From Hymenobacter sp. 15J16-1T3B (GTDB lineage: Bacteria > Bacteroidota > Bacteroidia > Cytophagales > Hymenobacteraceae): a DNA stretch of 64,000 bases. Numbering within the stretch: position 1 is the first letter of the stretch; each line of letters starts with the position of its first letter. Positions 21,753-31,837 of the stretch are shown here, piece by piece. A program made the position numbers and the translations under genes. The stretch spans positions 86,426 through 150,425 of the forward strand of contig NZ_JAJFAV010000015.1 of NCBI RefSeq assembly GCF_020711235.1. The letters run 5' to 3'. The notes under the pieces were generated by a model. It did no database searches and was not told the DNA's origin. It saw only the letters and a program-made list of their open reading frames with translations.

Positions 21753-23189
21753 CTATTCCCCGCCGTACTTGCTCTTGCCCACGCCGCCGGCGTCCATGCG
21801 CACGATTTTGGGCTGAAACGAGCCGAGCACGTCGACCAAGTCGCGTTGGTGGTCCATCACCTGGTGAATGTCCTTGTAGGCCATCGGGGCCTCGTCGAGG
21901 CCGCCGCCGATGAGCTCCACGCCTTGGTCGCGCAGCAGGCGGCGCAGCTCCCCTTCCGACACCTGCTGCTTGGCCTGGGTGCGCGAGAGGCGCCGCCCGG
22001 CCCCGTGCGCGGCGGATTGGATGGAGTCCCGCTCGCCCCGCCCGCGCACGATGAAGCCGGGCGCGGTCATCGAGCCGGGAATAACGCCGAGTACGCCCTG
22101 GCCGGCCGGGGTGGCGCCCTTGCGGTGCACGATGGCCGTGCGGCCGTCGGCCAGCTCTTCCTTCCAGGCAAAGTTGTGGTGGTTTTCCACCTTGGCCAGC
22201 ACCTCCTGGCCCAGCGCCTTGCTGAGGCGGCGGTGAATGTCGCGGTGGCAGGCGGAGGCGTAGTCGCCGGCCAGGTTCATGGCCGCCCAGTACTCCTGGC
22301 CTTCCTGGGTGTGCAGGTCGAGCCAGGCGAGGTAGCGGGCTTCGGGCGGCAAGGGGCAGCGGTTCATGGCCACCTTGGTGTAGTGCTGGGCAATGGCGGC
22401 GCCCAGCCCGCGCGAGCCGCTGTGCGAGAGCAGCCCCAAGTATTGGCCGATGGGCAGGTTCAGGTCGTTGTCTTCGGCGGTGATGTCGACCATGCCCCAC
22501 TCCACGAAGTGGTTGCCGGAGCCGGAGGAACCGAGCTGGTTGATGGCCGCTTCGCGCTTGCCGCGCACCACCGGTATTTCCTTGAACTCGGGCCGGTCGA
22601 GAATGGGGTCGTCGGCGGGCGTCTTGAACACTTCCTTGCCCCCGAAGCGGGTGTGGTTGTGCAGCAGCTTTTTCAGCTCGTCGCGGCGTTGCTCCAGGTA
22701 GCGCGGCGGCACGTCGAACACCGACAGGGCCATGCGGCAGCCGATGTCCATGCCCACGCCGTAGGGGATGACGGCGTTGTCGACGGCCAGCACCCCGCCG
22801 ATGGGCAGGCCGTAGCCCTGGTGGGCATCGGGCATGAGCGCCCCGTCGATAGTGACGGGCAGCTGCATGGCCGTGTCCATCTGCCGGCGGGCGCCGTCCT
22901 CGATAAACGAGTCGCCGTAGCGGCGGTAGTCTTTCACGTCGGGGCTCAGGCGCACCTCGCGGCTGGGCTGGGGCACTAGCTCCTGGGCCAGGGGGCGCCA
23001 GGTTTCGTCGCGCACGTACTTGTAGGGGTCTTGCTTGATGTCGCGCAGCAGGGCCAGGGCGCTGCCTTTGTCGAGGCGGCGCAGCTCGCGCTGGTCGAGG
23101 ATATCGAGGGCGAGGCTGATGTGCTTGTCGTCGGTGAAGCCGAGCTGGCGCAGGTCCTTGCCGTGGAGTTTCTGGGTGTTTTTGGCCAT
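21753..23189 (-). CDS. rtcB: RtcB RNA ligase, copy 1
   Basis: A 478-residue RtcB. RtcB joins RNA 3'-phosphate or 2',3'-cyclic phosphate ends to 5'-OH ends through a GTP-dependent His-GMP intermediate with Mn2+. All key motifs are present: PDAHQGYGLPIGGVLA, GMDIGCRMALS (metal Cys), GSSGSGNHFVEW, LLSHSGSRGLG, ENHHNFAW, VHRKGATPAG, the guanylylated His395 in SAAHGAGR, and IGGGLDEAPMAYKDI. The N-terminal 75 residues form an extra helical region shared with copy 2. It is separated from the rest of the island by the 2OG oxygenase gene and one plus-strand gene, so it may have its own promoter. Confidence 0.95.
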   Translation of the reverse strand: MAKNTQKLHGKDLRQLGFTDDKHISLALDILDQRELRRLDKGSALALLRDIKQDPYKYVRDETWRPLAQELVPQPSREVRLSPDVKDYRRYGDSFIEDGARRQMDTAMQLPVTIDGALMPDAHQGYGLPIGGVLAVDNAVIPYGVGMDIGCRMALSVFDVPPRYLEQRRDELKKLLHNHTRFGGKEVFKTPADDPILDRPEFKEIPVVRGKREAAINQLGSSGSGNHFVEWGMVDITAEDNDLNLPIGQYLGLLSHSGSRGLGAAIAQHYTKVAMNRCPLPPEARYLAWLDLHTQEGQEYWAAMNLAGDYASACHRDIHRRLSKALGQEVLAKVENHHNFAWKEELADGRTAIVHRKGATPAGQGVLGVIPGSMTAPGFIVRGRGERDSIQSAAHGAGRRLSRTQAKQQVSEGELRRLLRDQGVELIGGGLDEAPMAYKDIHQVMDHQRDLVDVLGSFQPKIVRMDAGGVGKSKYGGE

Positions 23190-23897: not shown

Positions 23898-24449
23898 CTA
23901 CTCCACCGGCAGGCGGAACATCACGTCGGTGCGCAGCACGTACTTCACGCCTTCGGTCACGCTGCGGCCCAGGTGGTAGAGGCCGTGCTCGAACACGAGC
24001 AGGCGGCCTTGCTTGGGCCACACGCGCAGGTCGCGGAAGGCCGTGTCGCCGCCCTGGAAGTTGTCGTTCAGGTACACCATGAAAGTCAGCAGGCTGGCTT
24101 CGCTGGGGCTGCGCACGAAGCTTTGGTCGTAGTGGCCGCGAAACTGCTGCTCCCGCTCGTAGCGGTAGAAGCGGAACAGCTCGTTCAGGCCCAGCGCCCG
24201 GCTGCGCCCAAATTCGGCCGGGATGAAGGGCCGGGCCCGCTCCCACAGCTGGTGGGCCAGCTCTTCGCTGCGGTGAAAGGCGCGGCTGTTGTTGCGCACG
24301 GCGGGCATCAGCCGGGCGCCCTTGGTGGTGTTGATTTTGGCGGCCTCGTAGCCCAGTTGCTCACTAAGCACCAAATATTCCAGGCATTCCTGGCGGGTCA
24401 GAAAATCGTCGACGGTAAAGATTGATTCGGCTAGCTGAGTTCGGGTCAT
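23898..24449 (-). CDS. 2OG-Fe(II) oxygenase
   Basis: A 183-residue prolyl-hydroxylase-like dioxygenase. The iron ligands fit HYDQSF (H-x-D, about residue 112) and the distal His in FEHGLYHLG, followed by Arg in YVLRTDV as 2-oxoglutarate contact. Sequences such as SRAFHRSEELAHQLWERARPFIP and LNDNFQGGDTAF are typical of the group. It sits between the two rtcB genes on the same strand. A role in modifying RNA or a repair protein is only an inference from position. Confidence 0.85.
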   Translation of the reverse strand: MTRTQLAESIFTVDDFLTRQECLEYLVLSEQLGYEAAKINTTKGARLMPAVRNNSRAFHRSEELAHQLWERARPFIPAEFGRSRALGLNELFRFYRYEREQQFRGHYDQSFVRSPSEASLLTFMVYLNDNFQGGDTAFRDLRVWPKQGRLLVFEHGLYHLGRSVTEGVKYVLRTDVMFRLPVE

Positions 24450-24559: not shown

Positions 24560-25963
24560 TTAGGCGCCGCCGTCCATGCGCACGATTTTGGGCGTGAAGG
24601 TGCCGAGCACGTCTACCAGCTCCTGTTGGCTTTGCATCACCTGGTGAATGTCCTTGTAGGCCATCGGCGCTTCGTCGAGGCCGCCGCCGATGAGCTCCAC
24701 GCCGTGCTGCTGCAGGTGACGGCGCACCTCGGCTTCGCCCAGTTCGGCCTTGGCCCGGGTGCGCGACATCAGCCGGCCCGCCCCGTGCGAGGCCGAGGCC
24801 AAGGAATCGGCCACCCCGCGGCCCCGCACGATAAAGCCGGGGGCGGTCATCGAGCCGGGAATGACGCCGAGCACGCCCCGGCCGGCCGGCGTGGCGCCCT
24901 TGCGGTGCACCACCACCTCGCGGCCGTCGGCGAGGCGCTCCTTCCAAGCGAAGTTGTGGTGGTTTTCCACCTTGGCCAGGGGCCGCTCGCCCAGGGCCCG
25001 GGCCACGCGCTGGTGAATCTGGTGGTGGCAGGCCGAAGCGTAGTCACCGGCCAGGTTCATGGCGGCCCAGTACTCCTGTCCCCCTTCCGAGTCGAGCGTG
25101 AGCCAAGCCAGGTGCTGGGCTTCGGCGGGTAGCTGGCAGGTGTCCTTGGCCAGCTTGGTGTAGTGGTTGGCAATGCTGGCGCCCAGGCCGCGGGAGCCGG
25201 AGTGCGAGAGCAGCCCCAGGTACTGGCCCACCGGCACGCCCATGTCATTGGTCGGGTCGGTAATTTCCACGATGCCAAACTCGACGAAGTGGTTGCCGGA
25301 ACCGGAGGTACCGATTTGCGCCGCCGCCGTTTCTTGCTTGTTGCGCAAGAAGGGTATCGAGGCAAATTCGTCGCGCTCCAGCACTTCGTGGCCCAGCTTC
25401 TGGCCGTGGCGAAACACGTCGCGGTTGCCGAATTTGGTGGTCGTGAGCAGCACGTTGCGCAGCTCCTGCACCCGCTGGGTGAGATAGTGCGGGGGCAGGG
25501 CGAAGATGGACAAGGCCATGCGGCAGCCGATGTCGACGCCCACCGCGTACGGGATGACGGCGTTGTCCGTCGCCAGCACCCCGCCGATGGGCAGGCCGTA
25601 GCCGTGGTGGGCGTCGGGCATGAGGGCCCCGGCCACCGTGACGGGCAGCTTCATGGCCGTTTCCATCTGGTGAATGGCGCCCGGCTCGATGTGCTCGGCG
25701 CCGTAGAGCACGTAGTCCTTGCGGGCCGCCAGGGCAATGTGGCGGCTGGGCGGGGGCAGCAGGGCCGCCGCGGTGTGTCTCCAGTCGAGGTCGGTGAGGA
25801 AGTTGGTAGGGGTTTGCAGCAGGAGTTTGAGCAGCGCCAATTGCTCGGTGTGCGAGAGGCGCTTGAGGTGCTTGCGCTGCAGTTGAGCCAGCGCCAGCCC
25901 GATGGCCCGACCTTCCGGGAAACCCAGTTGGCGAAGGTCGTTGCCGCGTAATTGATTGGCCAT
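24560..25963 (-). CDS. rtcB: RtcB RNA ligase, copy 2
   Basis: A 467-residue RtcB paralogue of copy 1, with all active-site motifs: PDAHHGYGLPIGGVLA, GVDIGCRMALS, GTSGSGNHFVEF, LLSHSGSRGLG, ENHHNFAW, VHRKGATPAG, His393 in SASHGAGR, and IGGGLDEAPMAYKDI. It is the first protein gene downstream of the nine-RNA array, 190 nt after the last RNA, so it is probably on the same transcript. The open frame continues 141 codons upstream through RNA 9 and part of RNA 8, but family start and motif position favour ATG 25963. Confidence 0.95.
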   Translation of the reverse strand: MANQLRGNDLRQLGFPEGRAIGLALAQLQRKHLKRLSHTEQLALLKLLLQTPTNFLTDLDWRHTAAALLPPPSRHIALAARKDYVLYGAEHIEPGAIHQMETAMKLPVTVAGALMPDAHHGYGLPIGGVLATDNAVIPYAVGVDIGCRMALSIFALPPHYLTQRVQELRNVLLTTTKFGNRDVFRHGQKLGHEVLERDEFASIPFLRNKQETAAAQIGTSGSGNHFVEFGIVEITDPTNDMGVPVGQYLGLLSHSGSRGLGASIANHYTKLAKDTCQLPAEAQHLAWLTLDSEGGQEYWAAMNLAGDYASACHHQIHQRVARALGERPLAKVENHHNFAWKERLADGREVVVHRKGATPAGRGVLGVIPGSMTAPGFIVRGRGVADSLASASHGAGRLMSRTRAKAELGEAEVRRHLQQHGVELIGGGLDEAPMAYKDIHQVMQSQQELVDVLGTFTPKIVRMDGGA

Positions 25964-26152: not shown

Positions 26153-26254
26153 CAGCCGGAGCAACAGGGCGGCCCGCGTACAAATGGGGTACACCTCGCG
26201 GCGTACTACCCGACGTGACAGGTCGAAGTAACGCGGGCCTACGGCATCCGGCCG
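26153..26254 (-). ncRNA. Array RNA 9 (Y RNA-like, short body)
   Basis: The end stem P1 is 26247-26254 with 26153-26160. P2 is a perfect 9-bp helix, 26231-26239 with 26171-26179. The conserved left loop TGCCGTA (26240-26246) and TACTTCG (26224-26230) are present, and the right loop holds TGTTGC (26161-26166). The body between the P2 strands has a GGGTA/TACCC hairpin but no T-loop or D-arm, so it is a minimal or degraded form. Confidence 0.7.
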
Positions 26255-26271
26255 ATTGGGCGGGTAGAGTT

Positions 26272-26362
26272 GGGCCGGGGTAATCAATCGGTGGCCTGCT
26301 ATGCCTAGAAGGGGGTAGCCCTCCAAGGCCCGAAGTATGGCCAGCCTACGCCACCCGGCCCG
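26272..26362 (-). ncRNA. Array RNA 8 (Y RNA-like, short body)
   Basis: P1 is a perfect 8-bp helix, 26355-26362 with 26272-26279. P2 is weaker (26340-26347 region with 26292-26296). The left loop is the variant TGGCGTA, and TACTTCG (26331-26337) is conserved. At 91 nt it is the shortest unit and has no recognisable T-arm or D-arm. Confidence 0.6.
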
Positions 26363-26371
26363 CTCCCCCCC

Positions 26372-26512
26372 TGCCTGGGCAACCAAGCGCGCCGCCTCTT
26401 TCTCTTCCTGCTTTTACCCATCAGCCACGGGTGGTTTACAACACACCCGGCGGGACTCGAACCCACATCTTGAAGTGTACACGAAGTATGGCGGCGCTAC
26501 GGCACCAGGCAG
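26372..26512 (-). ncRNA. Array RNA 7 (permuted tRNA-like Y RNA, Tyr-like loop)
   Basis: P1 is a perfect 8-bp helix, 26505-26512 with 26372-26379. P2 has 8 bp, 26490-26497 with 26390-26397. The left loop TGCCGTA and TACTTCG are intact. The body, in permuted order, is a T-arm with loop TTCGAGT (26455-26461), 3' acceptor strand 26443-26449, an 8-nt loop, 5' acceptor strand 26428-26434 (6 of 7 pairs), then a D-arm GCT...AGC (26410-26425). The segment after TACTTC reads GTGTACA, which could be a GUA anticodon loop. Confidence 0.8.
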
Positions 26513-26520
26513 AAACAAAA

Positions 26521-26677
26521 GCTGCTTACCAGGGCTACCAACGGCGGGCGTTCCAGGTGCCGCCCCTGGCGGAGCGGGCACCTACCGGCCACCGAAGCGG
26601 CCGGGTGAAGGAGTTGAACCTACTAAACGAAAACGTCTTACCGAAGTAACACCCGCCTACGACACCCGGTAGGCAGC
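26521..26677 (-). ncRNA. Array RNA 6 (permuted tRNA-like Y RNA, expanded D-arm)
   Basis: P1 is about 12 bp with mismatches (26665-26677 with 26521-26534). P2 is 9 bp with one G-U pair (26649-26657 with 26543-26551). The left loop is the variant TGTCGTA. The T-arm has loop TTCAACT (26612-26618). The acceptor is about 6 bp, 26599-26604 with 26585-26590. In place of a normal D-arm there is a long hairpin (26556-26582). Confidence 0.75.
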
Positions 26678-26688
26678 CATGCAAATAA

Positions 26689-26825
26689 CCGTTGGGGCAA
26701 CTGGGCGCCCGGCCCGATCCTGCTCTACCAAACTGAGCTACCGCTGCCAGAGCAGCGGGGAGGATTCGAACCTCCGACCCGGGCATTAAAAGTGCGAAGT
26801 AGGGCCGAGCTACGGCACCCAACGG
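26689..26825 (-). ncRNA. Array RNA 5 (permuted tRNA-Lys-like Y RNA)
   Basis: The clearest unit. P1 26818-26825 with 26689-26696 is perfect and extends to 12 bp (26829/26685). P2 is 9 bp, 26802-26810 with 26707-26715. The body is a hairpin GCA-CTTTTAA-TGC (26783-26795, UUU anticodon loop), a T-arm GGAGG-TTCGAAT-CCTCC (26759-26775), 3' acceptor CCGCTGC (26752-26758), a 4-nt loop, 5' acceptor GCAGCGG (26741-26747, perfect 7 bp), then D-arm GCTC...GAGC (26722-26738) and GG (26719-26720), which pairs with CC beside the anticodon hairpin. Joined at that point it would be a complete tRNA-Lys(UUU). Confidence 0.88.
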
Positions 26826-26834
26826 TCATACTAT

Positions 26835-26971
26835 CCGAGGCAACAACGCGCCCAGCCTACGAACCTGCTCTAACCCCTGAGCTACCGCCGGCTCTGGCGA
26901 GCCAACGGGCGGGAATCGAACCCGCGACCCGGCGAATCACAATCGAAGTACGGCTGAGCTACGGCACTCGG
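26835..26971 (-). ncRNA. Array RNA 4 (permuted tRNA-His-like Y RNA)
   Basis: P1 is ctcgg/ccgag (26967-26971 with 26835-26839). P2 is 8 bp (26952-26959 with 26850-26857). The anticodon loop is TTGTGAT (26936-26942, GUG) and the T-arm is GCGGG-TTCGATT-CCCGC (26909-26925). The 3' acceptor 26902-26908 pairs with 5' acceptor 26885-26891 (7 bp, two G-U) across a 10-nt loop. The D-arm is GCTC...GAGC (26867-26882), followed by GG. P1 bases differ from unit 5 on both strands, so the helix is conserved by covariation. Confidence 0.87.
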
Positions 26972-26987
26972 TGTACAGTAGCATTTC

Positions 26988-27146
26988 GGGCAAAGGCGGG
27001 ACAACAGGGCGGCGCGCCCCTTGCATTAGCGTGTCTACCCGTTTCACCACGGGCCGCCTCGCGGCAACCCGGCAGGACTCGAACCCGCACGCCTGACGGC
27101 ACTAATTCCCACGAAGTACGGCGCGCTTACGGCACCCGCTTCGCCC
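26988..27146 (-). ncRNA. Array RNA 3 (permuted class-II tRNA-like Y RNA)
   Basis: P1 is about 12 bp with one bulge (27135-27146 with 26988-27000). P2 is 7 bp (27119-27125 with 27012-27018). The body has a long variable arm (27089-27101), T-arm GCGGG-TTCGAGT-CCTGC (27072-27088), and an acceptor 27065-27071 with 27050-27056 (7 bp with two G-U) across an 8-nt loop. A Leu-like D-arm GTG...CAC (27031-27049) follows. CTAAT (27025-27029) can pair with ATTAG (27102-27106) as an anticodon stem. Confidence 0.82.
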
Positions 27147-27159
27147 GATAAAAACAAAT

Positions 27160-27289
27160 CCGCCGGGGTAAAATGAGCCTCACTTCTGCTCTACCATTGA
27201 GCTACGGGCCCAGAATTGGCATTCTTGGGTGGGCCCGATAAGAGTCGAACTTATAACCCGAAGTAGGTGAAGGCAACGACACCCGGCGG
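27160..27289 (-). ncRNA. Array RNA 2 (permuted tRNA-like Y RNA)
   Basis: P1 is a perfect 8-bp helix (27282-27289 with 27160-27167). P2 is about 7 bp with a bulge (27266-27273 with 27177-27183). The left loop is the variant TGTCGTT, and the right loop also differs (TCATTTTA). The T-arm is ATAAG-TTCGACT-CTTAT (27238-27254). The acceptor is a perfect 7 bp, 27231-27237 with 27205-27211, closed by a 19-nt loop that itself forms AGAAT-GCCA-ATTCT. The D-arm is GCTC...GAGC (27188-27202). GAAGT (27182-27186) could instead pair with ACTTC (27260-27264). Confidence 0.83.
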
Positions 27290-27311
27290 GGTATCGGCGG
27301 GGCTTCGGCAA

Positions 27312-27446
27312 CGGCCGGGGCAACAGGCGCAGCGCGTGTATTTTCCTACTGCCGCCAAAGCAGCAGCGCGGGATTCGAACCCGAAGCCACCCCGTGAGGC
27401 AACCCGAAACAGCCACGAAGTAACGCCCCGCTACGGCACCCGGCCG
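27312..27446 (-). ncRNA. Array RNA 1 (permuted tRNA-like Y RNA, reduced D-arm)
   Basis: P1 is a perfect 8-bp helix (27439-27446 with 27312-27319). P2 pairs 8 of 9 bases (27423-27431 with 27329-27337). The left loop TGCCGTA, TACTTCG and the right loop TGTTGC are all consensus. The T-arm has loop TTCGAAT (27373-27379). The acceptor has 7 bp with two G-U pairs, 27361-27367 with 27348-27354, and a 6-nt loop. The D-arm is very short. It is the first RNA of the array, 75 nt after the macrodomain gene stop. Confidence 0.8.
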
Positions 27447-27520
27447 CTGGCAGAAGATCCGCAGCAGCTTACGCCGCTAGCGCTGATTGATTTTTCATTG
27501 GAGTACGCTGGTTGAAATGT

Positions 27521-28354
27521 CTATTGAAAGGCCTCCTCGAATGCCCACAGCGTGTCGTGCGGCGGCTTGGGGTCGAAGACGGCAAAGTCGATGCGCTTGA
27601 AGTGGCTGCTGACGTTCAGCTCGCGCAGAGCTTCTGCGAACAGCTGCGCTACCTGCGCCGGCTCGTTGCCAAATACCCCGCAGCCCCAGGCCCCGAGCAC
27701 CAGGACCTCGCAGCCGTGGCGGGCCGCCGCGCCCAGCACCAGCCGGATGCGCCGCTGCATGGTGGGCACTAGCGCCGGCAGCAATTCAGGGTTGTTGCGG
27801 CGCAGCGCCCCGGCATTTACTGCCGGCGCCGTTAGCACGTCGATGCAGTAGGGCTGCTCCAGCCAGCGCCCGGCGTCGTCGCGGACGACGGGCACCGCGG
27901 GGGAGTAGATCAGGTAGTCGCTGTAGAGGCCGTTGAGGTGGGCATTGTGCTGATACATCTCGCTGAACTGCGCAATGCACGGATACAAGCCCGAGGAGCG
28001 GGCCAGGCTTTCTTCCTGGGCCTGACTGCCGCCCAGAAAGCCGCCCCCAGGGTTGCGGGCCGAAGCAAAGTTCAGTACGCCCACACGACCAAACTCCCGG
28101 CAAAGCGCCTCGGCGGCCTGCAGGGTGGTGGCCTGGTACACGCGCACCTCGGCGGGTTGAGCGTCCGGCAGGGCCGCGCCGAGTTCCTGCCCCAGCGCGT
28201 CGGCGTCCGCCGGCCGGTAGAGCAGGCTGCCGTGATGGGCAGCGTGTTGCCAGGCCTCGATAGTCACTTCCCGGCCGGTGGCGGTCCGGTAGCGGCCCGT
28301 TTCCAGGGCATCGAGGGTGAGGCGGGCCAGTTGTTGACGTTGTTCGCGGTTCAT
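27521..28354 (-). CDS. Macrodomain poly(ADP-ribose) glycohydrolase, TIGR02452 type
   Basis: A 277-residue bacterial-type PARG. The signature is intact: NPGGG at 101-105 and catalytic QEE at 113-115 (GGSQAQEESLARSS), plus LGAWGCGVFGN for ligand binding. Family enzymes remove ADP-ribose chains from proteins; ADP-ribose linked to nucleic acid ends is another known macrodomain substrate. The gene lies between the TROVE gene and the RNA array on the same strand. Macrodomains recur in RNA-repair gene sets, where removal of RNA-end ADP-ribose or cyclic phosphate is proposed. The ATG at 28354 is used rather than one 8 codons upstream. Confidence 0.88.
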   Translation of the reverse strand: MNREQRQQLARLTLDALETGRYRTATGREVTIEAWQHAAHHGSLLYRPADADALGQELGAALPDAQPAEVRVYQATTLQAAEALCREFGRVGVLNFASARNPGGGFLGGSQAQEESLARSSGLYPCIAQFSEMYQHNAHLNGLYSDYLIYSPAVPVVRDDAGRWLEQPYCIDVLTAPAVNAGALRRNNPELLPALVPTMQRRIRLVLGAAARHGCEVLVLGAWGCGVFGNEPAQVAQLFAEALRELNVSSHFKRIDFAVFDPKPPHDTLWAFEEAFQ

Positions 28355-28461
28355 TGGGGCAGGTGGTGTCGGCAGCATCCGGACGCGGGGCGCGGCGGCC
28401 CAGTTGCCGCCGCGCCATGCCGCTTGAGGGTTGCGGTCTGGTTTAGAATCAGGAGTAAAGT

Positions 28462-28811: not shown

Positions 28812-30341
28812 TTACAGCTCGATTCGCTCAATTTCCGTCAGGGCCGAGCCGCCGTTTTCCAGCGCCTGCAGCACGTCGAAAACTTTGTCGGACCAGCCGG
28901 CGATGAGCGCCACTCCCTCCTGCTCGTGCACTTGCACCGGGGTGGTGCCGTGCCCGGCCAGGTCGAAGAGGTAGAGGCGGGCCTGCGGGGCCACGGCGCG
29001 GCGGTAGGCAGCCCATTCCTGGGCCAGCGTGCCGCCGTCGCCGGTGCTGTTCCACAGCTGGCCGTCGGTGAAGATCATGACCTTGTCGACGGCTTCGGCC
29101 CGCAGGCGCAGGTCGCGCACCACCAAGTAGCCGTTGGTGCTGTAGCCCACCTCGCCTTCGCGGCGGTAGAGCTCCTGCACGTTGCTCAGCACTTGGTTTT
29201 GCGGCAGCTGCACGCGCTTCCAGATGTTGCCGAACATGCCGGTCACCACGTGGGCGCAGCGCGCCTGCAGCAACATGCCCAGCACCAGCCCGATGTCGTA
29301 GTACTGCACCTTGCTGCGGGCCGAAACCGGCTGCTGCATGGAGCCCGACACGTCGCAGGCCACCACCACGCGGGTGTCGGCGCCGAAACCGCGCAGGTTG
29401 GCGGTGGAGTGGCCAATGGCCGTTTCCAGCGCCGTGAGCACCCGGGCCAGGTGCCCGGAACGCACCTGCAACAGCTCCCGGTAGGCGGCTAGGAAGCGGA
29501 AGGGCAGCTGCTTGCTGCGCTGCACCGCCCGCTCGTCCGTCAGCGTAGCCACCACGCGCTCCATCGCTGCAGCCGATACCTCGGCTTCGAGGATGTTGCG
29601 CAGGTTGCGCAGCAGGGCCATGTAGCCCAGCTTGCCGCTGCTAATCAGCTCCTCCCACTTCTGGCGGAAGGCCGTCTGCCGTTCCGTTGCATCCGCAAAC
29701 GTCTGCTGGCCCAGGGCCGACAGCTCCGTTTCCCAGGTGTAGGGCGTGGGCAGCTCGCCGCGCACCAGCTGGTCGAACAGCACTTGCTGCTCGGGGCTGT
29801 TGGCCTGCGGGTGCACCAAGAATAAGGCGTCGCGCAGGCGCACCTGCCCGGCGCGGTCGTACTTGGCCAGCTGGTAGCCGTCGAAGCGGTTGAAAGCCAG
29901 GGCCAGGCCCTTCTGCAGCTGCTTGGAGAGACGGTTCAGGGTTTTGGGGCCCTGGCGCTGGTTGGCCACGGCGTAGAAGGCCAGCAGCTCGGTAATCTCG
30001 TCGGCGCGCTGCACCACGCGGGCCACTAAGCGGCTCACCAGGTTGTCGCCGCGGTGCACCTGAGCCAGCTCCACGGCCAGCACCAGCGGCACGGTGCGCA
30101 GGTAGAGCTGCTCGCGGGCGTACACGGCCAGCTGGGCCACGAAGCGCGGCTCGTTCTGGCGGATCAGCTGGCGCAGGCGCTGCAAGCGGGTGTCGGCGGT
30201 TTCGTAAAACTGGTCGCTGAGCCCGGCCGTAGCCACGGCGGCGTACAGCTCCAGCTGCGGAGTCAGAGTGAAAGCCGCCGCGCCCTCGTGGTTCACCACG
30301 GCCGTCGGCTTGTTTTTGCGGAAGCTAAAGTTGAAGCGCAT
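28812..30341 (-). CDS. Ro60 homologue: TROVE domain plus vWA
   Basis: A 509-residue TROVE protein (Ro60/Rsr family). The HEAT-repeat ring of the TROVE domain spans about 20-320 and includes VAQLAVYARE, RTVPLVLAVELAQ and GYMALLRNLRNILE. The vWA domain follows, with MIDAS motif D330-x-S-x-S in VACDVSGSM and TDGQLW near the end. In other bacteria this ring protein binds Y RNAs on its outside and misfolded RNA ends in its hole, and aids RNA decay and repair. The ATG at 30341 is the family start; upstream frame is non-coding. It leads the macrodomain, RNA array and rtcB genes. Confidence 0.94.
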   Translation of the reverse strand: MRFNFSFRKNKPTAVVNHEGAAAFTLTPQLELYAAVATAGLSDQFYETADTRLQRLRQLIRQNEPRFVAQLAVYAREQLYLRTVPLVLAVELAQVHRGDNLVSRLVARVVQRADEITELLAFYAVANQRQGPKTLNRLSKQLQKGLALAFNRFDGYQLAKYDRAGQVRLRDALFLVHPQANSPEQQVLFDQLVRGELPTPYTWETELSALGQQTFADATERQTAFRQKWEELISSGKLGYMALLRNLRNILEAEVSAAAMERVVATLTDERAVQRSKQLPFRFLAAYRELLQVRSGHLARVLTALETAIGHSTANLRGFGADTRVVVACDVSGSMQQPVSARSKVQYYDIGLVLGMLLQARCAHVVTGMFGNIWKRVQLPQNQVLSNVQELYRREGEVGYSTNGYLVVRDLRLRAEAVDKVMIFTDGQLWNSTGDGGTLAQEWAAYRRAVAPQARLYLFDLAGHGTTPVQVHEQEGVALIAGWSDKVFDVLQALENGGSALTEIERIEL

Positions 30342-30436
30342 AAGTAGTGGTGAAATAGCGTGGTGGAAAACGAATGAGTTGGCAGCCTGCCGGCTGCTGG
30401 AGCGTCGTTTAGGTCGTCCGAACGGGCGCGGCCGAA

Positions 30437-30532: not shown

Positions 30533-31837
30533 TTACCCAAACAGGTGCTTGGGAATCAGCAGGCGGTTGTCGGTGGCCCAGCGCTGCACCCAAAACAGCT
30601 CTTCCTCGTTGAGGCGGCGGTTGAGCAGGCCCCGGGCTTGCACCACGGTGCGGTTGGCCTGCACTTCCAGGGTCAGGGCCCGGGTGCCGTCGAGGGTGAG
30701 CGAGAAAATGCCGCTGCGCCCGCGCTGGCAGGCGCCGAGGTAGGAGGCCACGCAGTGCCGCAGCGCCCGGCCCTCGTCGATGAGGTCCCAGTAGCTCAGC
30801 AGCTGGGTAATGCGCACCTTGCACTTGTGGCCGCCGGCAAAATCCTGCACCGCCAGCGGCTCCCAGGTAGTCGTGTAAGCCGGTTCGGCCGCGGGCTGGC
30901 GCTGGGCGTGTTGAGCCAGTTGGCGGTGCCACTTGGCCGTCTGCGCCAGCACGCTCTGCATCGAGCGGCCTTTCAAGGAGAAGCCCGGCTGGGCCGGCTC
31001 GTCGCCTATACCCTCGCTGCGCTTCTGGTGAATCCAGTCGCACACCGGCCCGAGTTGGTAGGGGTCGACCAGGGGCGCGGCGGCGAAGAACTCCACCACC
31101 CGCAGCCAGAACTCGTCGTCGCGCTCCAGGCGGCGGCCCAGGCGGGAGTCGAGCACCGGCCCGAGCCACTCCGGCAGCTCGCGGGCGGCGAGCTGGGCGT
31201 AGCGCAGGGCCTGCAGGAAGGTGTAGCCCGCCGGCGCCTGCCGCAGGTGGTGCTCCACCTTGCGGGTGAGCTTCACCGGCAGCCGGTGGAAGGTGCGCAA
31301 GGCCCCGCCCCGGCCCAGGTGCACCGTGAGGTCGGCGATGTTGACGCCGCCGTCGTGGAGGCGGCCGGTAGTCCAGGAGCTGAGTATCCAGGCCGGCACG
31401 TCGCCGTAGCGGTCGAAGAGGTGGCGCACCAGGCTTTCCAGCTGCCGAAACGGGTTGCGGCTGCGGGGCTGCCAGTCGGCCAGCTCGCGGCAGCGGTGAC
31501 GCTGAAAGTCGGCCACGGCCGCCAGGGCCGGGGCCAGTTCGGGGCGCCAGAGCAGGCTGCTGCGCTTGGCGGCTAGGCTGCGCAGCAAGGCGGCGCACCG
31601 GTCGCGCTGCTCCCAGGTTTTTTCGTGGGCGCAGTGGCGGTAAAACAGCGCCAGGGGTGAATCTTCCCCGAAATGAGCGTCGATTACGGGCAGCGGGCCC
31701 TGCACGCTGAACAGGTACGCAACCTGCTCCTTGGGGGCCATGCGGCGCCAGTCGACGCGCCGGGCCGCCGCCAAAACTATGCGGGCTTGCTCGGCTTGCC
31801 AGACGGCGTGCGGGAGGGGTTTGAGGCGGTTTGCCAT
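30533..31837 (-). CDS. PcfJ-like protein
   Basis: A 434-residue protein whose C-terminal half carries the PcfJ signature (about 300-425): a KVRITQLLSYWDLIDEG strand-helix, then LRHCVASYLGACQRGRSGIFSL, and LTLEVQANRTVVQARGLLNR. The N-terminal half is helical with many Arg, His and Trp. PcfJ proteins are known from conjugative elements and from gene sets linked to RtcB and TROVE; their biochemical role is unclear. It is the first gene of the minus-strand island, 190 bp before TROVE. Confidence 0.78.
   Translation of the reverse strand: MANRLKPLPHAVWQAEQARIVLAAARRVDWRRMAPKEQVAYLFSVQGPLPVIDAHFGEDSPLALFYRHCAHEKTWEQRDRCAALLRSLAAKRSSLLWRPELAPALAAVADFQRHRCRELADWQPRSRNPFRQLESLVRHLFDRYGDVPAWILSSWTTGRLHDGGVNIADLTVHLGRGGALRTFHRLPVKLTRKVEHHLRQAPAGYTFLQALRYAQLAARELPEWLGPVLDSRLGRRLERDDEFWLRVVEFFAAAPLVDPYQLGPVCDWIHQKRSEGIGDEPAQPGFSLKGRSMQSVLAQTAKWHRQLAQHAQRQPAAEPAYTTTWEPLAVQDFAGGHKCKVRITQLLSYWDLIDEGRALRHCVASYLGACQRGRSGIFSLTLDGTRALTLEVQANRTVVQARGLLNRRLNEEELFWVQRWATDNRLLIPKHLFG

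Follow-up and report, generated by a model that had tools for sequence, protein, structure and literature searches.

The window analysed here, 64,000 nucleotides (nt) of DNA from Hymenobacter sp. 15J16-1T3B (contig NZ_JAJFAV010000015.1), contains an array of nine units on its minus strand, at positions 26153-27449 by the boundaries of the present analysis. The units are 90-159 nt long and separated by spacers of 5-19 nt. We regard the array as nine putative RNA genes on one common predicted Ro60-binding scaffold, mostly with a circularly permuted tRNA-like body. By Pfam, the order of genes is PcfJ-like, Ro60, PARG-type macrodomain, array, RtcB, 2OG-Fe(II) oxygenase and a second RtcB. The Ro60/TROVE protein with a vWA domain (28812..30353; TROVE 1.5e-30, vWA_Ro60 2.4e-07), presumed to bind the scaffold, and the PARG-type macrodomain protein (27521..28378; PF10021, 4.5e-43) are encoded on the minus strand, as are the RtcB RNA ligase downstream of the array (24560..25963; PF01139, 2.7e-82), the second RtcB (21753..23189; PF01139, 1.9e-79) and, between the two, the 2OG-Fe(II) oxygenase (23898..24425; PF13640, 2.9e-10). 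Residues D334, S336 and S338 of Ro60 are invariant in an alignment of 18 sequences that includes the Ro60 of the window. The PcfJ-like protein gene that adjoins Ro60 (window 30533-31837) has a homologue in 23 of 79 related loci. An earlier sequence-only reading of this DNA had described nine head-to-tail, minus-strand, Y RNA-like units of 91-159 nt, with 8-22 nt spacers, beside Ro60, macrodomain and RtcB genes; apart from these slightly shifted boundaries its description was borne out, and Pfam recognises two RtcB genes.

Each unit has a scaffold that consists of a closing stem (P1), a left loop, a second helix (P2), the motif TACTTCG and a right loop. A caller built on this scaffold (TGYCGTA, 5-14 nt, TACTTCG with at most two changes, and a closing P1) made 9 calls in the array region compared with 7 in total across 200 dinucleotide shuffles, which rules out a chance origin of the array; the rest of the window gave one call on the minus and two on the plus strand. 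In the whole 6.3-Mb genome the strict motif occurs 7 times, every time inside the array, against 2 occurrences of the reversed-pattern control.

Three of the units carry an anticodon hairpin. Units 4 (26835..26971) and 5 (26685..26829), both on the minus strand like all the others, are whole permuted tRNAs by their predicted parts. The hairpin of unit 4, CGA-TTGTGAT-TCG (26933..26945, minus strand; anticodon GTG), has the loop of the host tRNA-His, and that of unit 5, GCA-CTTTTAA-TGC (26783..26795, minus strand; anticodon TTT), the loop of the host tRNA-Lys; when the scaffold is removed in silico, ARAGORN calls tRNA-His(GTG) and tRNA-Lys(TTT), respectively. Unit 9 (26153..26254) is short and no T-arm was found in it, but its scaffold bears an Asp-type hairpin, TCGAC-CTGTCAC-GTCGG (26210..26226, minus strand; anticodon GTC), with the loop of the host tRNA-Asp. 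All three hairpins stand directly 3' of TACTT. In units 4 and 5 the hairpin is followed by CC (42-43), the variable loop GGGTC, the T-arm, the acceptor 3' strand, a short loop, the acceptor 5' strand, TA, the D-arm, A26 and GG (27-28). Since this GG pairs with the CC at 42-43, the point at which the scaffold interrupts the anticodon stem is between positions 28 and 29. The sequence-only reading had overlooked the three hairpins and left unit 9 outside its seven units with a tRNA body. It had also described the tRNA as opened in the anticodon arm; this is right for units 4 and 5 in so far as the scaffold interrupts the anticodon stem, but their anticodon loop is kept.

The other six units are more varied. 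Unit 1 (27309..27449) has the scaffold, a T-arm, an acceptor-like helix and a reduced D-arm, with no anticodon hairpin found. Unit 2 (27160..27289), with scaffold, T-arm, acceptor and D-arm, is opened near the variable loop, TACTTCG lying almost immediately 5' of the T-arm, and unit 3 (26988..27146) has a Leu-like body with a long variable arm, a GTAGACAC-type D-arm and an opening in the anticodon loop. Scaffold, T-arm (TTCAACT loop) and long hairpins make up unit 6 (26522..26676), in which no D-arm was found, and unit 7 (26368..26515) has scaffold, T-arm, acceptor and a GTGGCTGATGGGTAAAAGC-type D-arm, again with no anticodon hairpin found. Finally, in the short unit 8 (26272..26361) neither a T-arm nor an anticodon-like hairpin was found. 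Our parser thus finds a T-arm in 7 of the 9 units, in agreement with the seven tRNA bodies claimed previously, but T-arm, acceptor, loop and D-arm, complete and in this order within the closing stem, in 5 only.

The array is not an oddity of this strain. Ro60 is present in 18 of 58 genomes, the window genome included, and all 18 of these TROVE-bearing genomes have the strict motif at the Ro60 locus, 16 of them with at least two hits; read by eye, none of the 40 genomes without Ro60 has a pair of motifs on the same strand within 2 kb. A pattern survey of the phylum gave a match in 105 of 395 genomes, mostly as single hits, which by eye look like chance when set against the reversed-pattern columns, so that only clusters are meaningful. 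We then took the best 80 of 564 related loci confirmed with a profile of the 18 Ro60 sequences, chosen by Ro60 similarity to Cytophagales; their labels are mostly Bacteroidota, with some metagenome-assembled genomes and one Williamsia. Several genomes recur between loci L061-L077 and L122-L201, and the counts use L122-L201 and the window only. Over these 80 loci and the window, 484 calls fell on the strand of Ro60, compared with 16 on the opposite strand. After isolated calls were dropped, 463 clustered units were kept from 80 sources (79 loci and the window), including 11 units of at least 220 nt, whose ends are possibly miscalled. By the caller, arrays have 2-11 units, and at least two units are found in 79 of the 80 Ro60 loci kept, which rejects a strain-specific origin; L163 has a single unit, outside the 463. 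The left loop is TGCCGTA in 271 and TGTCGTA in 104 of the 463 units, and the commonest ending of the right loop is GTTGC (191/463). RtcB is encoded in 59 of the 79 loci, and in 48 the array lies directly between the Ro60 or macrodomain gene and RtcB. The array is upstream of Ro60, not downstream, in two of the 79 loci (L187:7281-8657 and L195:5514-6078), and in two others (L135:10823-12039 and L138:10760-11850) a gap of about 1.1-1.2 kb follows the first two units, possibly a macrodomain gene inside the array. Separately, Chryseobacterium defluvii (L181:4296-6292) has a tRNA island near its Ro60 array: fourteen ordinary tRNA genes crowd into 2 kb, the last of them about 2.7 kb upstream of Ro60, and a further one lies at 1005.

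The tRNA-like parts are found throughout this collection. Of the 463 units, 312 have a T-arm, compared with 2-12 in ten shuffles, and 149 combine it with acceptor and D-arm, compared with 0-4. When the tRNA halves of the 58 anticodon-keeping units, from 48 sources, are joined in silico without the scaffold, ARAGORN calls a tRNA in 57, compared with 11 of 58 for rotation without excision and 18 of 463 for linear units; on the window as it stands, a tRNA finder calls an ordinary tRNA-Leu only and none of the array units. Hallmark bases are nearly invariant among the 58 (T8 58, A14 57, GG 56, TTC 55, A58 58 and G53-C61 58), counts that are only partly independent because the parser required T8 and the T-loop (within one change) and favoured GG and A14. 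The ends of the tRNA body are joined by a loop of 3-20 nt, and N-CCA is seen in 2 of the 58. With acceptor ends closed in this way and CCA mostly absent, such molecules, if decoys, would escape charging and take no part in translation. In other classes, all assigned by eye, the opening lies elsewhere: in 24 units the T-arm comes almost directly after TACTTCG, some of them having a hairpin with a 3-5 nt loop after the D-arm, at the position of the anticodon arm, and Leu- and Ser-like units have their opening in the anticodon loop and retain the long variable arm.

Covariation supports the predicted structure. In an alignment of 34 of the 58 anticodon-keeping units, picked by likeness, 94.8% of cells are paired, compared with at most 46.1% in slid controls; rows with the CGA/TCG hairpin are misaligned by one column, with 11 rows unpaired at columns 35 and 47. 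Two-sided changes occur in 32 of 42 pairs; they affect 279 cells, whereas shuffles give 78.5 and slid controls no more than 85. Pairing reaches 96.4% in P1, where 11 of 12 pairs change on both sides, and 87.9% in P2, where 9 of 9 do. The helix formed by 27-28 and 42-43 is 100% paired and both its pairs show two-sided changes, while the D-arm is invariant in this alignment and hence uninformative. Because P1 pairing was used in calling the units, its figure is biased; P2 was not used, and it forms at least 7 of 8 pairs in 395 of the 463 units, compared with 144 (maximum 161) when partners are exchanged. The observation of the sequence-only reading that the two strands of P1 and of P2 change together is confirmed, and covariation in homologous loci, on which it had let its case depend, is strong. 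Unit 5 folded alone gives the predicted structure except for the 27-28 pairs (z -3.0). If a Y RNA locus had captured fragments of tRNA genes and the array were a by-product, its tRNA parts having no selected role, this would fit the very different bodies and the units in which parts are missing; the compensatory two-sided changes and the near-universal arrays at the Ro60 loci kept already contradict this, and we give it next to no credence.

We next asked how general the anticodon hairpin is. By a rule that demands Y32, T33 and R37, an anticodon-like hairpin is present in 108 of the 463 units and 64 of the 80 sources, compared with a null mean of 7.2 and a maximum of 15 in 200. The loop is identical to one of 41 tRNA loops of the window genome in 59 units from 37 sources (null 0.21, maximum 2), and loops of 7 nt outnumber those in shuffles threefold (102 versus 32.4). 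The commonest loops by number of sources are Lys CTTTTAA (17), Asp CTGTCAC (16), Asn CTGTTAA (8), Phe CTGAAAA (5) and Lys CTCTTAA (5); many others occur, including triplets with no matching tRNA in the window genome. Conservation of positions 32, 33 and 37 in these counts is partly by construction. An unbiased set, chosen by geometry alone and free of the loop rule, comprises 67 units from 52 sources, and has T33 in 64, Y32 in 66 and R37 in 62, with 34-36 mixed. In 65 of these 67 units 27-28 pairs with 42-43; for the cases with a stem of three, this pairing is seen in 47 of 48 (GG/CC 30, CA/TG 12, CG/CG 5), compared with a mean of 24.5 and a maximum of 35 when partners are exchanged. The hairpin can be the sole tRNA-like part found, as in short units (66-73 nt in the examples) with Tyr-type CTGTAAA (L189), Lys-type (L177, L197) and Asp-type (L176, L178) loops.

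The anticodon loop changes faster than the body that carries it. We compared 23 nearest-neighbour pairs whose bodies differ by no more than 15%, with some sequences used more than once. The triplet is changed in 18 of the pairs, and divergence is 0.435 at positions 34-36 compared with 0.061 and 0.091 in the 5' and 3' halves of the body. The low values at positions 33 (0.000) and 37 (0.043) are in part a consequence of the selection rule used in this test. In the clearest pair, from Hymenobacter jeollabukensis (L122) and Hymenobacter edaphi (L125), 60 of 60 body positions are identical and the arms are CGA-TTTTGAT-TCG (Gln type) and GCA-CTTTTAA-TGC (Lys type), respectively.

Similar arrays are carried by Ro60-bearing phages. 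A Ro60 relative is encoded in 86 of 50,697 phage records. Among the best 80 of 243 Ro60 loci on viral contigs, a set that holds some near-duplicate contigs, 50 contain the scaffold motif in a broader form, with 101 hits on the Ro60 strand and 5 on the opposite strand. An anticodon-like hairpin accompanies 17 of these hits (null 1.6, maximum 7 of 500) and an exact loop 5 (null 0.08, maximum 1); a pattern scan of viral sequences gave few real clusters among the matches listed. Proteins from the viral Ro60 loci match PHROGs in 7 of 10 cases, for example a tail protein, a head maturation protease, DnaB and RecT. In each of 8 named phages inspected, without a shuffle control, the motif matches beside Ro60, with at best 3 mismatches in L406 and L408, and CcrColossus and Xanthomonas phage Olaya have Asn-type CGA-CTGTTAA-TCG units. 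Depositors' annotation overlaps Y RNA-like units beside Ro60 twice, as a tRNA-Ser over a Ser-type unit in Brevundimonas phage Gurke (L402:2293-2367) and as a tRNA-Gln in CcrColossus (L405:1631-1698); Gurke also has a permuted tmRNA (RF04321, 57.7 bits) downstream of Ro60 (L402:5869-6214). Two crAss phages carry an unpermuted form, in which acceptor strands GGAGGGA and TCCCTCC surround, in this order, D-arm, P2, scaffold hairpin, P2, TACTTC, a stem-loop at the anticodon position and T-arm. The loop at that position is Thr-type CTTGTAA in cr106_1 and non-canonical in PhiCrAssBcn1; the Rfam tRNA model matches the PhiCrAssBcn1 unit over 144 nt (46.6 bits), while the cr106_1 unit is below the cut-off. 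Bacteria and crAss phages thus encode two circular permutations of a single RNA fold, a tRNA whose anticodon stem receives an added stem: the ends lie at this added stem in the former and at the acceptor in the latter. In crAss001 the TROVE gene is among the early-transcribed genes (PMC10136315).

The interpretation we prefer, itself an evenly balanced call from sequence analysis, is that the units act as Ro60-held decoys that would divert anticodon nucleases from genuine tRNAs. The array RNAs would be transcribed and cut apart, and each unit would be held by Ro60 through P1 and its two loops, left and right. Anticodon nucleases would then bind or cut the units in place of host tRNAs, and the neighbouring RtcB could reseal cut decoys as well as cut tRNAs. 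Anticodon diversity would follow the range of nucleases met, and Ro60-bearing phages would use similar decoys against the nucleases of their hosts. Cleavage of the anticodon loop is a known anti-phage tactic (PMC7824862, PMC10264068), and Hughes et al. suggested that the tRNA-like domain of YrlA could competitively inhibit the nuclease (PMC7790460). More tentatively, and short of an even chance, Ro60 arrays may be a swappable repertoire of anticodon baits used by bacteria and phages, in which whole tRNA mimics or bare arms sit on one scaffold, the arm is exchanged as a cassette in an arms race over tRNA-cutting defences, and RtcB reseals spent baits. Arrays of tRNA mimics that keep their anticodon loops, in Ro60-bearing Bacteroidota and in phages, make one answer to the question of the function of bacterial Ro60 and its Y RNAs beside RtcB directly testable, namely decoys against anticodon nucleases. 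A decoy function would give Ro60 a role in the arms race over tRNA cleavage, and its place beside an RNA repair ligase would be explained.

Several observations weigh against the decoy interpretation. By the Y32/T33/R37 rule no anticodon-like hairpin was found in 355 of the 463 units, and the loop is lost in Leu-like and other classes, so that the anticodon cannot be the sole purpose of the units. A34 anticodons are rare in bacteria, and ARAGORN reads A34 in one of the 41 tRNAs of the window genome, yet about 10 of the 108 loops have A34, which a mimic of a target would not need. Positions 32 and 38 each diverge by 0.435, as much as the triplet, with 0.246 in the anticodon stem and 0.137 in the acceptor strand; fast change thus affects the entire arm and is not confined to the triplet. 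Nor are the swap pairs independent of one another, and they are presumed orthologues. Unit 4 folds less clearly (z -2.1): its minimum-energy structure lacks the 3-bp anticodon hairpin, whereas the fold of unit 5 forms its own. Contact of nucleases with the array RNAs is a step that we infer, and Salmonella YrlA is reported not to be cut by the RecA-dependent nuclease (PMC7790460). A decoy could possibly bind the nuclease without being cut.

A different explanation, in our view unlikely, takes the units as ordinary Y RNAs in the RYPER sense: the body would recruit PNPase or another tRNA-binding protein to Ro60 to make unit-specific degradation machines, the anticodon arm being a leftover. The order of the body is that of YrlA, the tethering of PNPase to Rsr by Y RNA is established in Deinococcus (PMC8394870, PMC7790460), and the 355 units that lack a loop by the rule would be expected. 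However, a leftover loop should decay, yet T33 and R37 are kept in the geometry-chosen units while the rest of the loop outpaces the body, and short units retain the anticodon hairpin in the absence of other tRNA parts. Less can be said for the units as platforms, stored or regulated via Ro60, for enzymes that read or modify the anticodon loop, such as Tgt or wobble-uridine enzymes, which we judge improbable. The target of Tgt is U33-G34-U35; Asp, Asn, His and Tyr loops do share UGU at 33-35, and Lys and Gln types have U34. YrlA, moreover, is a substrate of TruB and DusA (PMC8394870). Against such platforms, the anticodons spread over many isotypes, some with no matching tRNA in the window genome, and differ between close relatives.

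Quite improbable, finally, is that these are permuted tRNA genes whose scaffold is excised, whose position 28 is joined to 29 by RtcB and whose acceptor loop is trimmed to give working tRNAs. The ARAGORN calls after excision, the RtcB genes of most loci and the unpermuted crAss form with its free acceptor ends would all suit this, but N-CCA is nearly always missing, ochre (TTA) and A34 anticodon loops occur, and other classes are opened elsewhere or have the anticodon hairpin only. The window genome, furthermore, already covers all 20 amino acids with tRNAs. We rejected working permuted tRNAs as the principal explanation on two of these grounds, CCA in 2 of 58 and all 20 isotypes present elsewhere.

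Among the known systems closest to the units is YrlA, a bacterial Y RNA of the Salmonella rsr-yrlBA-rtcBA operon, which they resemble in the end-paired stem, in the order of the body and in their place beside Ro60/Rsr and RtcB. At gathering cut-offs Rfam matches none of the array units in the window, and YrlA is absent at that level from 7 related loci (where only ordinary tRNAs are matched, all in L181 and outside the array) and from 6 phage loci. At a relaxed threshold the YrlA model (RF02553, cut-off 69 bits) gives 44.3, 43.1, 32.8 and 23.8 bits for units 2, 5, 4 and 7, and at best 32.3 bits in one Flavobacterium array. The YrlA model already runs T-arm, acceptor, loop, D-arm, and therefore the permuted order is not itself new. 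The kinship with YrlA raised by the sequence-only reading holds for this order but stays below the cut-off in score, and its view that an array with different tRNA bodies is undescribed must be narrowed likewise: no prior report of such an array was found, but the order is that of YrlA and similar arrays occur in relatives and phages. A set of two Y RNA genes, yrlB and yrlA, was already known (PMC7790460). The arrays differ from YrlA in their tandem 2-11 units, the TGCCGTA/TACTTCG scaffold, sub-cut-off scores, anticodon hairpins (the YrlA model shows none), and several tRNA types and opening points per array. As in bacterial Y RNAs, the 5' and 3' ends pair (P1 pairing being part of the caller) and the gene lies beside Ro60; scores below the YrlA cut-off mean that the units are not filed as YrlA members. 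To judge from their features, they are probably best named a new variant of bacterial Y RNA, with a presumably Y RNA-like mode of working. In the literature, covered in part so that a prior report is possible, we found no report of Y RNA arrays or of anticodon-bearing Y RNAs.

For the Y RNA of Deinococcus we know of no array or anticodon arm. That RNA is tethered to the Ro60 protein in RYPER (PMC8394870), a likeness to the array by description, Ro60 binding being predicted here. Compared with functional tRNAs, the units have the bases of the tertiary contacts of the cloverleaf, but they are not recognised in place and a CCA end is mostly absent. Permuted and intron-bearing tRNA genes of archaea and algae have the 3' half before the 5' half and a paired insert at the anticodon side. 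In the Bacteroidota units, by contrast, a short loop closes the acceptor ends, which mostly have no CCA, the insert is a stem predicted to bind Ro60, and splicing is hypothetical. Phage tRNAs that resist anticodon nucleases have been proposed to act against VapC, PrrC and colicins D and E5, and have been shown to act against PARIS (PMC10264068, PMC11455837). They share with the array units the principle of a tRNA-derived counter-measure with altered anticodon loops; those, however, are working tRNAs, while the array units look uncharged and would be held by Ro60, as decoys rather than replacements.

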